Of a DNA stretch of 64,000 nt, positions 42,049 to 45,002 are shown in pieces. This DNA is from Candidatus Saccharimonadota bacterium. Lineage in GTDB: Bacteria; Patescibacteriota; Saccharimonadia; Saccharimonadales; Saccharimonadaceae. The notes under the pieces were generated by a model. The model saw nothing but the letters and a program-made list of their open reading frames with translations. It was not told where the DNA came from and did not search any database. The DNA lies in assembly GCA_017514045.1 (NCBI GenBank), contig JAFWLS010000016.1:1-64000 (forward strand), written 5' to 3'. The position numbers were made by a program, and so were the translations under genes. Position 1 is the stretch's first letter; every line of letters starts with the position of its first letter.

Positions 42049-43014
42049 CTATTTTTTATGTAGTCGCTGATTTACGATACGGAGTTTCTTGTAGAGGCTA
42101 TATTTGGTTTTGTTTAATGGTAGATCCCAGGTGCCAGAGTAAGTGCGCGCGAATCCACCAAACGATTTTTTAAAGCGAGTGAACCCAGCCCATGGATGGT
42201 TGGCTGGTGCATCTTCTGGGGCAATGCCCCAAAAATCAAAATATTTAAGGCCTTTTTCTTTGGCGTCGAAAAGAGAATTACAAAGTAATCCGACTGTAGT
42301 GGGAAGATTTTTATAGGTGGGGTCGGAGGCGGATTGCATGTAGAAACGGGTGGAATTTTCTGTATCGTCAAAGAATAACGAGGCGGCAACGATCTTGTCC
42401 GATTGTGTTTCCGGATTTTTGAGGTGAACTAGATAAAGTGAAGCGAAAGGCTGTTCGAGCTCCTTTTTCAGATGAGATTCTTCGTATGCCGTTATGCCTT
42501 TACGTTTAGCGAGTGCTTGTTGGAGCCGAACTAGATGTTTAATGTCATTTGGGTTGTGCGAAATTTCTACTGAGAGATTTTTGCGTGGAAACTGATTGTG
42601 TCCTAGGCGTGTGCCGTGTGAAAAACCAAGAACTAGATCTTCTTTGCTTGGTGTTAGATCTAGGAGCCATGTATGTGCTGGTTCGATGTCTTTGGTCTTT
42701 TGGAGCTTCTGTGAAGCCATATAATTGGCCGTAAAGGGTTCTGTAGGCTCGACCCTGATAAAGATGCAATGTTCGTGCCTTGCTAGGCTTACGAGCGATT
42801 CTATGGCCTTTTGAAAGGATTTTTGTGCGACGGCTGGATCGGTCTTGGAAGATTTTACGGATGGACCATAGGGAACTGATAAGTATGAGCCTAGTTTTAT
42901 TGGGGTTTTAATAGCCATATATTCATAGTCTGGGGTGGATTTTCGGAATGTCTTGTGTCCGGCGGATTGCTCGTAGGCTTCCCATGCGGTGGACTGAAGA
43001 AAGTGTTTAAACAT
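42049..43014 (-). CDS. FemX/FemAB-like peptidoglycan bridge aminoacyltransferase
   Basis: A 321-residue protein with the double GNAT-like fold of FemAB. The late motif YFDFWGIAPEDAPANHPW and GFTRFKKSFGG near residues 265-290 are typical. These enzymes add amino acids from aminoacyl-tRNA to the lipid II side chain. The helical hairpin seen in staphylococcal FemA is not evident, as in FemX-type members. TATAAT ends 6 nt before the ATG: leaderless. It suggests that a cross-bridge is made. Confidence 0.85.
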   Translation of the reverse strand: MFKHFLQSTAWEAYEQSAGHKTFRKSTPDYEYMAIKTPIKLGSYLSVPYGPSVKSSKTDPAVAQKSFQKAIESLVSLARHEHCIFIRVEPTEPFTANYMASQKLQKTKDIEPAHTWLLDLTPSKEDLVLGFSHGTRLGHNQFPRKNLSVEISHNPNDIKHLVRLQQALAKRKGITAYEESHLKKELEQPFASLYLVHLKNPETQSDKIVAASLFFDDTENSTRFYMQSASDPTYKNLPTTVGLLCNSLFDAKEKGLKYFDFWGIAPEDAPANHPWAGFTRFKKSFGGFARTYSGTWDLPLNKTKYSLYKKLRIVNQRLHKK

Positions 43015-43032
43015 GAGTCAATTATAACATAA

Positions 43033-43616
43033 TATGAAAAAGGCTCCGCTGGATTGCGGAGCCTACCTAGGGGAATAGTTAGGACGAAATGAAAGATCTT
43101 CCATGGGGGGCACATTCACTGGGAAACGGGCGCCTTGATTTTACTTGGCCGCGGTCGTCTTACTGATTGGTTTTGAGGAACATGTGGAATGCACAGATTT
43201 GTAAGATGGGCAGGCGTCTGTTAAGTAAGTCGAGCAAGTAAACGGTGACAGGGTACGTGTTTTACGAGAAGGTAGCTTAAACTTCTTAGAGTCTACCTGG
43301 GAGTACTTGGCGGAGCACAGAGCCCGGTTCTCAAGGGGCTGAGAAAGGGATGCCCGCCTCAAGAGCGAGCATAACATGGCGGCCATAATTGAATGCAAGT
43401 CGCTTGTCTGTACTCGCGCTTTTACCAAATGCGCTGTCATGATCAAGCTTCTTGGGAGCTCCGATTCAATTTTGACACCTTTTACCAAGATGACGCCAAG
43501 TAAAAACACGTGAGGAATTCGTTCTGCCTATCGGCTCATTTAATGACCCAATGGACTTCCTCCTCCTAACTATATGGAATTAACGTACTACCGAGAGCCC
43601 TCCTTTCCCGAGTGAT
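43033..43616 (-). ncRNA. Candidate ~580-nt structured non-coding RNA (RNA2)
   Basis: On the minus strand a consensus promoter (TTGACA at 43651-43646, 17 bases, TAAAAT at 43628-43623) is followed by about 580 nt and an intrinsic terminator GGCTCCGC / GCGGAGCC with TTTTT (43063-43037). The ends pair: ATAGTTAGGA (43573-43564) and TCCTAACTAT (43084-43075). GGAGGAAGTCC near the 5' end recalls RNase P RNA, but other RNase P and tmRNA signatures are absent. A 122-codon frame inside (43141-43509, GTG) has unnatural composition and no ribosome site. Confidence 0.6.
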
Positions 43617-43622
43617 AAGTGG

Positions 43623-43651
43623 ATTTTAGCATGCGAGAAAAGTGGTGTCAA
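43623..43651 (-). promoter_or_regulatory. Promoter of RNA2
   Basis: On the minus strand, TTGACA, 17 bases, TAAAAT: one of the strongest promoters in the window, with no Shine-Dalgarno or plausible start codon just downstream. Confidence 0.85.
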
Positions 43652-43672
43652 GCGAGAATTATTTTGTTATAG

Positions 43673-43869
43673 AAAAGGGCTCCGCTTGTGCGGAGCCGGG
43701 GGATGGAGAATGTGCAATAGAGTGTTATGGATTTTAGGCGAATCGAAAACGATAATGTGGTATAGTATTTGCTCTAAAACATTTCTCCTATGCAGTTTTC
43801 AAGGTACGCCTGCCTATTGTCTCTCGATGGATGTAGGATCCATTCTTTGAGACTTCACTATTGAGGCGT
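43673..43869 (-). ncRNA. Candidate ~195-nt structured non-coding RNA (RNA1)
   Basis: A promoter at the end of tsaD (TTGAGC 43902-43897, 17 bases, TAAAAT 43879-43874) leads into two folded domains. The 5' domain has nested stems ACGCC/GGCGT, GTCTC/GAGAC and ATGGAT/ATCCAT. The 3' domain has GGAGAAATG pairing with CATTCTCC, TTTTAG/CTAAAA and ATCG/CGAT. The terminator GGCTCCGC / GCGGAGCC with CTTTT ends it at about 43673. Its size fits 6S RNA, but I cannot confirm that class. It could also be a tsaD 3' UTR RNA. Confidence 0.6.
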
Positions 43870-43898: not shown

Positions 43899-45002
43899 TC
43901 AAGCAATAGCAGATCTAGGAGAAATGTCGAGAGAATATGGATCTGTGGGTGGAATGCCGGATTTAATCTCGTAGTAGGCGGCCATAGCGACCATGGCGGC
44001 GTTATCACCGGAAAACATGTGGGAGGGGAAGAAGAGTGCTACTGTGTTGTTAGGCATATTGTCATTCGAGGATGAAGCGAATTTCTTCTTCGCCGCATTT
44101 CTCAAGGCGCTGTTTGCGCTGACTCCCCCGGCAAAAACAATTGATTTAGCGTCTGGATGTTCTGTTTTTGCCTGAGCGACTTTTTCTAAGAGTATATCGA
44201 CGGCAGTTTTCTGGAAACTGGCGGAAAAATCAGCAATTTGTTTTTCGTTCAGTAAATTCTTTAAATCGTGTGATGGAAAATCGATACCGACTCCACATTC
44301 TTTTTGTACGGTGCGAAGTACGGCTGTTTTGAGGCCAGAGAATGAGAAATTTAGACCTTCAATTCGTGGGTGAGGGAACTTATACCTATCTGGATCTCCT
44401 TTTTCGGCGGCTTTGGCTACAGATGGGCCGCCTGGGTAGGGAAGACCGAGGATTTTAGCGACTTTGTCAAAGCATTCGCCGATGGCATCATCGAGTGTTG
44501 TGCCGATTATTTCGAAAGAGTTGTGTTCTTTCATGTAAATAATTTGAGTATGCCCACCAGATATGACAAGGGATAGTAATGGGAATGTTGGAAATGTTTC
44601 GTCTTTTTGACTTTGGCTGGACGCAGTTGAGGACGGTTCTTTTATCCAATTACTGTAGATGTGACTTTTGAGGTGGTGAACTGCGTAGAGTGGTTTGTCG
44701 TGAAGAATAGCGAGGGTGCGAGCGGTGAGAGTACCGATGAGAAGAGAACCAAGTAGTCCGGGCGTGTGAGTGACGGCAATGGCATCTATGTCGTTCCAGG
44801 TTATTTCGGCGTCAGTAAAGGCTTTGTCGATGACTGGCAGGATGGCTTCTAGATGGGAACGAGCAGCTACTTCAGGGATGACACCGCCATATGTTTTGAA
44901 AATGTCGATTTGCGAAACGACGATATTGCTCAAAATTTCGCCGTCTTTCAGAATGGCGGCAGCGGTTTCGTCGCAAGATGACTCGATGGCCAAAATTATC
45001 AT
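43899..45002 (-). CDS. tsaD: TsaD, catalytic subunit of t6A tRNA modification
   Basis: A 367-residue protein. ILAIESSCDETAAAI begins the family, HHLKSH near residue 108 supplies the metal-binding His pair, and YPGGPSVAKAAEKGD and FAGGVSANSALR follow. It transfers threonylcarbamoyl to A37 of tRNAs reading ANN codons, with TsaB and TsaE (34441-35324). TATAAT ends 6 nt before the ATG: leaderless. Its stop codon overlaps the -35 of the RNA1 promoter. Confidence 0.95.
   Translation of the reverse strand: MIILAIESSCDETAAAILKDGEILSNIVVSQIDIFKTYGGVIPEVAARSHLEAILPVIDKAFTDAEITWNDIDAIAVTHTPGLLGSLLIGTLTARTLAILHDKPLYAVHHLKSHIYSNWIKEPSSTASSQSQKDETFPTFPLLSLVISGGHTQIIYMKEHNSFEIIGTTLDDAIGECFDKVAKILGLPYPGGPSVAKAAEKGDPDRYKFPHPRIEGLNFSFSGLKTAVLRTVQKECGVGIDFPSHDLKNLLNEKQIADFSASFQKTAVDILLEKVAQAKTEHPDAKSIVFAGGVSANSALRNAAKKKFASSSNDNMPNNTVALFFPSHMFSGDNAAMVAMAAYYEIKSGIPPTDPYSLDISPRSAIA

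Follow-up and report, generated by a model that had tools for sequence, protein, structure and literature searches.

In the 64,000-nt stretch of DNA analysed here (the window), a predicted RNA gene of approximately 580 nt lies between tsaD and a FemAB-family gene (femAB), and all three are on the same strand (Table 1). Transcription was predicted to start at position 43616 (ATCA), where the sequence TATCA is conserved in the homologues described below, and to end near position 43036. The consensus promoter and the terminator that an earlier note had reported for this region, with the strand left unstated, were both found on the minus strand. In shuffled sequence, about one weaker promoter and one weaker terminator are expected by chance, and the case for a transcription unit therefore rests on the same layout being present in the homologues. 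Matching promoter-like sequences were read by eye upstream of the RNA in four of them (G002, G047, G144 and G180).

The downstream gene femAB has no Shine-Dalgarno (SD) sequence and carries its own −10 element directly before the ATG, an arrangement shared by all six homologous loci. It thus looks leaderless and separately transcribed, which argues that the RNA is not a femAB leader. Within the window, a −10 element at leaderless distance from the first ATG was found for 18 of the 52 long open reading frames (ORFs) and an SD for 14 of the 52, so that a start of the femAB type is normal here, while a transcript that opens with two strong SDs is unusual.

Table 1. Features predicted at the tsaD-femAB locus, in window coordinates
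Feature	Position	Strand	Evidence or remark
tsaD	43899-45002	-	PF00814
Sigma-70-type promoter, TTGACA-17-TAAAAT, TG before -10	43623..43651	-	11/12 consensus positions
Whole RNA, ~580 nt	43036..43616	-	Syntenic homologues in five other genomes; no Rfam match
Conserved 5′ domain, 77 nt, ends at mini-ORF stop codon	43540..43616	-	Identity; R2 model
Hairpin P1, AGGAGGG in loop	43591..43611 (arms 43611-43605, 43597-43591)	-	~90% of cells paired
Loop SD GAAAGGAGG, STAB-SD-like	43599..43607	-	9-nt complement of 16S tail CCUCCUUUC
Closing helix H2, 5′ arm	43564..43573	-	Kept in all six homologues with different sequences
Second SD AGGAGGAGG	43559..43567	-	AGGAGG present in all six homologues
Mini-ORF UUG-GGU-CAU-UAA	43540..43551	-	7 nt after second SD
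Helix H3, 5′ arm ACTTGGCG	43494..43501	-	Covariation
Helix H3, 3′ arm CGCCAAGT	43305..43312	-	Covariation
Hairpin H4, GGTAG(A)CT...AGCTACC	43271..43297	-	Two double-changed columns over four homologues
3′ palindromic hairpin H5 ATGGAAGATCTTTCAT	43089..43104	-	Near-invariant in four homologues
Closing helix H2, 3′ arm	43075..43084	-	Helix overlaps start of second SD
Intrinsic terminator, 9-pair stem then U run	43041..43064	-	Three pairs with double changes
femAB extended -10 TGTTATAAT	43021..43029	-	6 nt before ATG; start codon 43014
femAB	42049-43014	-	PF02388

Homologues, distribution and known RNA classes

Syntenic homologues were identified in five other species of the genus, which gives six carriers including the window copy (genome G000). 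The G002 copy was found by a DNA search (84% identity over the first 77 nt) and the G047 copy by reading the tsaD-femAB gap in members of the genus, while a search of 174 genus genomes with R1, a sequence model of the 5′ end, brought in G144 and G180, where both loci again lie between tsaD and femAB. A 288-nt version was recognised by eye in the tsaD-femAB gap of G076; it retains the GAAAGGAGG-bearing loop, the second SD, the mini-ORF TTG-CCT-TAA and the closing helix (TTCTTTAG/CTAAAGAA). The remaining copies measure 581 nt (window copy), 571 nt (G002) and 531, 701 and 578 nt (the G047/G144/G180 set), and pairwise identity among the five alignable copies, G076 being left out, is 47–64%. The six carriers grouped as one clade (support 99/98) in a 32-row FemAB tree, with G180 on a long branch. 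There are also tsaD-femAB pairs that lack the RNA.

Searches for wider relatives with R1 and with a model of the 77-nt 5′ domain (R2, run over 394 family genomes) returned only the known homologues above chance across the 174 genus and 394 family genomes; 13 weak R2 matches were in line with the number expected at an E-value of 0.05, and none of the inspected alignments was convincing. When the exact 5′ pattern was sought in 84,980 genomes, the matches comprised four Saccharibacteria loci, all of them already identified, and otherwise unrelated organisms. A viral scan with the 5′ pattern gave one partial match (L065), which was taken as chance because it had been selected by the pattern itself. 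The matching public records were Saccharibacteria of water-buffalo rumen, sheep jejunum and sheep ileum, together with one uncultured bin, and, judging from the genomes searched, the RNA is confined to one clade of ruminant-gut Saccharibacteria, a group to which the organism of the window probably belongs.

Two further tsaD-femAB gaps contained other elements. In the sister lineage G017 (L018), a different gap of 590 nt holds a long 5′ hairpin, AAGGAGGTGAAACC-TTG and a 69-codon frame, for which no Pfam match was found; this region is possibly a distant relative of the RNA. In G002 (L012), the 571-nt RNA and femAB are separated by two more small transcription units, both of which have a GC-rich terminator and a sequence resembling a promoter. 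Small RNA genes seem to accumulate in the tsaD-femAB gap.

The Rfam search proposed in the earlier note, carried out with the window copy and the homologous loci, gave no match at the curated threshold and none convincing at a relaxed threshold; the ROOL, GOLLD and OLE models likewise matched neither the window copy nor its homologues. A hint of RNase P RNA, previously seen in GGAGGAAGTCC, proved misleading, as this sequence belongs to the SD/mini-ORF module, the class A model (RF00010) has no match at the locus and the RNase P RNA gene lies elsewhere (G000:C17:12588-12947, 232.9 bits). That the locus is not a tmRNA gene was borne out: RF00023 has no match there, and the tmRNA models match on other contigs (C5:403-762 and C17:9120-9476). 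A T-box riboswitch was rejected, with no Rfam match and with a leaderless-type promoter belonging to the downstream femAB, as was a CsrA sponge of the CsrB/RsmZ type, G000 having no CsrA. No antisense target of the 5′ domain was found in its own genome. The 122-aa frame at 43141-43509 had no Pfam match and is interrupted in the homologues by stop codons and indels, in agreement with the earlier view that no credible protein is encoded.

The two tmRNA-model matches of G000, a small genome, both exceed the cut-off (positions 403-762 of locus L004, on C5, and 1501-1857 of locus L005, on C17); they scored 99.8 and 81 bits, and neither was called by ARAGORN. A similar stretch, GGCGG..AAAAGGTAATTTCTAGCCATA..., lies near each of them and may represent another conserved RNA.

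Covarying helices and the conserved 5′ domain

Folding of the single sequence was unexceptional (z = −1.56, with 6 of 100 shuffles as good); therefore, inverted repeats alone are no evidence and the case for structure depends on comparison. Covariation, a check that the earlier note had suggested, was assessed in a MAFFT alignment of four homologues (A3), in which P1, H3, H5 and the terminator were tested. Here, 96.6% of the cells were paired, compared to 36–48% when the partner was slid by 1–3 columns, and four pairs were changed on both sides, a number reached in 3 of 500 shuffles. With strands chosen by hand, from helix columns curated by eye in six sequences, native pairing exceeded that of swapped strands in all six helices. 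The clearest of these was H2 (1.00 native vs. 0.58 swapped, with double changes in six columns). Because duplex energies computed for the SD region against the 3′ end were too permissive to be discriminating, a contiguous-helix test was used in their place, which for H2 gave p values of 0.003 (G000), 0.008 (G002) and 0.024 (G076), was weak for G047, G144 and G180 singly (p = 0.16–0.22) and combined to 1.2e-4 overall (Fisher). The 10-bp pairing of the distal ends claimed earlier, which corresponds to H2, is exact (ATAGTTAGGA/TCCTAACTAT) and is kept by compensatory changes.

The long-range helix H3 shows a G-C to A-U change in G144 and is formed by CTCGAAG/CTTCGAG instead in G180. The AGGTAG/CTACCT inverted repeat pointed out previously is present and covaries in the homologues as helix H4. 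In G180, H5 is replaced by the perfect palindrome GAGAAACATGTTTCTC, and the maintenance of a palindrome despite the sequence change would be in keeping with a dimer; OLE, ROOL and GOLLD form RNA-only homo-oligomers (PMC12286853). Pairing of H5 with the 5′ sequence GGAAGUCCAU is possible in four homologues and impossible in G180, and is therefore not the cause of the 5′ conservation. The stem of P1 is swapped in G180 for CTTAG/CTAAG; its covariation is modest, with no double change in A3, and P1 taken alone is weakly supported. Altogether, comparative support for the helices is good, though not overwhelming, given six sequences and curation by hand.

Conservation is concentrated in the 5′ domain, with a mean pairwise identity of 0.78 over nt 1–77 vs. 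0.33 over the rest, and by eye it falls directly 3′ of the mini-ORF stop codon. The loop SD, GAAAGGAGG, begins at nt 10 of the predicted transcript, and no start codon (ATG, GTG or TTG) was found at normal spacing after it. The 3′ end of the 16S rRNA in the same genome reads GGATTACCTCCTTTCT (G000:C13), and the complement of this tail is kept at 7 nt or more in five of the six homologues, being broken in G002, where one A is missing. The stretch that precedes the 16S tail (L085, on G000:C13 near the contig end) is unlike normal 16S rRNA, perhaps owing to an intron or an assembly join.

An SD followed by a start codon, one or two further codons and a stop is found in all six homologues. The mini-ORF reads TTG-GGC-TAT-TAA in G002, TTG-GGC-TAC-TAA in G047, GTG-GGC-TAC-TAA in G144 and TTG-GGC-TAC-TGA in G180, so that, with G076 apart, start (TTG/GTG), Gly (GGT/GGC), Tyr/His (TAT/TAC/CAT) and stop (TAA/TGA) are kept in five copies. 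Among these, four of the five substitutions are silent, for which a hand estimate of chance ranges from 0.01 (equal rates) to 0.05 (transition-rich); coming from only five substitutions, this is suggestive and falls short of proof. Pairing by the 3′ arm of H2 extends as far as the opening bases of the second SD, and in G180 the whole AGGAGG is paired via a CCUCCU located just 5′ of that arm. RNase J is encoded in the genome (TIGR00649, 446 bits, G000:C2:22355-24034), and the sequence hallmarks of a STAB-SD are present, namely a 5′-proximal SD complementary to the 16S rRNA that lacks a start codon, together with RNase J. Judged by its sequence, the 5′ module could be a binding site for 30S subunits.

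A second small RNA gene lies directly upstream, from 43873 to approximately 43671-43675 on the minus strand, with its own promoter (TTGAGC-17-TAAAAT) and terminator. Its fold is far more stable than those of shuffled sequences (z = −4.28, 0/200), and it contains the motif ACCTTGAAAAC as well as GGAGAA-ATG-TTT-TAG, the SD of which is paired to a 3′ UUCUCC. Beside the homologous RNA in G002 lies a relative that has ACCTTGAAAA and a frame of 22 codons, and exact-pattern matches were obtained in 3 of the 174 genus genomes. The presence of two adjacent RNAs of the same design strengthens the idea that SD, mini-ORF and 3′ anti-SD constitute one module, and the clade may use the SD/mini-ORF design more than once.

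Taken together, the comparative data make it very probable that the locus encodes a real, structured and independently transcribed RNA. The previous description of an orphan structured non-coding RNA gains from the synteny in six species, the restriction to one clade, the covarying helices and the lack of a conserved long ORF and of an Rfam match; its "non-coding" part may not hold strictly, as the most conserved segment resembles a translation-initiation region with a three-codon ORF.

Interpretation and comparison with known systems

Our preferred reading, which we put forward tentatively and as somewhat short of probable, is that of a structured RNA, specific to this clade, in which the binding of ribosomes is coupled to stability or activity and the 3′ end competes for the SD region. 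In this scheme, 30S subunits or initiating ribosomes would bind the 5′ module, where the SD hairpin at the very 5′ end would block 5′-3′ decay by RNase J in a STAB-SD-like manner, while ribosomes would cycle on the second SD and the mini-ORF without making a useful peptide. The 3′ arm of H2 and the ribosome would compete for the region of the second SD, and ribosome occupancy would open the closing helix, so that, depending on how many ribosomes are available, the RNA may alternate between a closed state and an open one that is stable and ribosome-bound. The output would come from the body and the 3′ palindrome, most likely with the molecule serving as a regulatory or scaffold RNA of long lifetime. 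The bolder version, a ribosome-sensing RNA class in which 30S binding at the hairpin SD and the mini-ORF, set against the 5′-3′ closing helix, determines lifetime or conformation (perhaps the dimer state), is a rather doubtful extension. Within the open papers searched, we know of no non-coding RNA that combines a STAB-SD, a minigene and 5′/3′ SD pairing.

Several alternatives were weighed. A structural or scaffold RNA like OLE, ROOL and GOLLD, possibly dimerising via H5 and using its SD-like sequences for folding or protein binding, would suit the size, the multi-helix architecture and the narrow distribution, and H5 indeed stays a (near-)perfect palindrome where its sequence is replaced in G180. 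However, no Rfam model matches, the body is poorly conserved, the length varies from 288 to 701 nt, and G180 keeps the SD/mini-ORF sequence despite its changed H5, so this sequence is not conserved for H5 pairing; we consider this explanation unlikely.

Quite unlikely, in our view, is a ribosome sponge, which would act either by titrating 30S subunits with its two SDs or through peptidyl-tRNA drop-off at the mini-ORF, as in the phage lambda bar minigenes, with the body only prolonging the life of the RNA. Two strong SDs, one without a start codon, the start, one or two codons and stop retained in all six homologues, and strong conservation limited to the ribosome-binding module are all in its favour. 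Nevertheless, a sponge would require very high abundance, the covarying long-range helices and the 3′ palindrome of the body exceed its needs, and the second SD would be partly masked within the closing helix.

It is improbable that the RNA acts in cis as a femAB leader or attenuator (T-box-like or peptide-sensing), with regulation at the terminator 26 nt upstream of the femAB start codon. The RNA adjoins femAB in nearly all homologues, a mini-ORF could sense translation, and FemAB-family enzymes use aminoacyl-tRNA. Against this, femAB looks leaderless in all six carriers, neither a T-box nor another Rfam riboswitch was matched, two more small RNA genes separate the RNA from femAB in G002, and the tsaD-femAB pair exists without the RNA. 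Very improbable is a small-protein mRNA or its remnant, whose SD/start module translated something longer in an ancestor: the AAGGAGGTGAAACC-TTG and 69-codon frame in the G017 sister-lineage gap would suit it, but the homologues share no conserved frame, that of G017 is without a Pfam match, and a relic would not retain a 77-nt domain and covarying helices.

With regard to the coupling to ribosomes that we favour, each element has a counterpart in mRNAs. The STAB-SD of cry3A mRNA (Agaisse and Lereclus 1996) binds the 16S 3′ end and blocks RNase J1 (PMC4113751). Both are SD-like sequences near a 5′ end that direct no translation; that of cry3A belongs to the 5′ UTR of a protein mRNA, whereas the one described here would sit in the loop of a 5′-terminal hairpin in an RNA without a long ORF. 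In the B. subtilis hbs mRNA, according to the accounts of Braun 2017 given in PMC7509114 and PMC6299119, initiating ribosomes and a 5′/3′ interaction jointly control decay. A similar combination is suggested here by the sequence, although hbs encodes HBsu and the present RNA would encode at most a tripeptide. The 3′-UTR of the S. aureus icaR mRNA pairs with its own SD region and creates an RNase III site (PMC3868564); the 3′ region of our transcript is likewise predicted to pair with its own SD region, but icaR encodes a repressor and there the pairing is a cleavage site, whereas here it would close a structured RNA. The two-codon minigene of axe-txe acts in cis, possibly by stabilising mRNA (PMC8708949), and shares with the phage lambda bar minigenes a tiny SD-led ORF; unlike the present case, these are parts of protein operons or of phage transcripts.

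It is rare for a large structured bacterial RNA to lack an Rfam family, and none from Saccharibacteria was described in the open papers searched. OLE, ROOL and GOLLD resemble the present RNA as large, rare, structured bacterial RNAs (PMC12286853); in contrast to them, it matches no Rfam model and its body is poorly conserved. It constitutes a new RNA family with an unusual 5′ module and a narrow distribution. Should ribosomes bind this module, the STAB-SD/minigene device of mRNAs would have been adopted by a non-coding RNA. That would tie the lifetime of a structured RNA to the supply of ribosomes, in a way open to direct testing, in a bacterium that is minimal and host-dependent.
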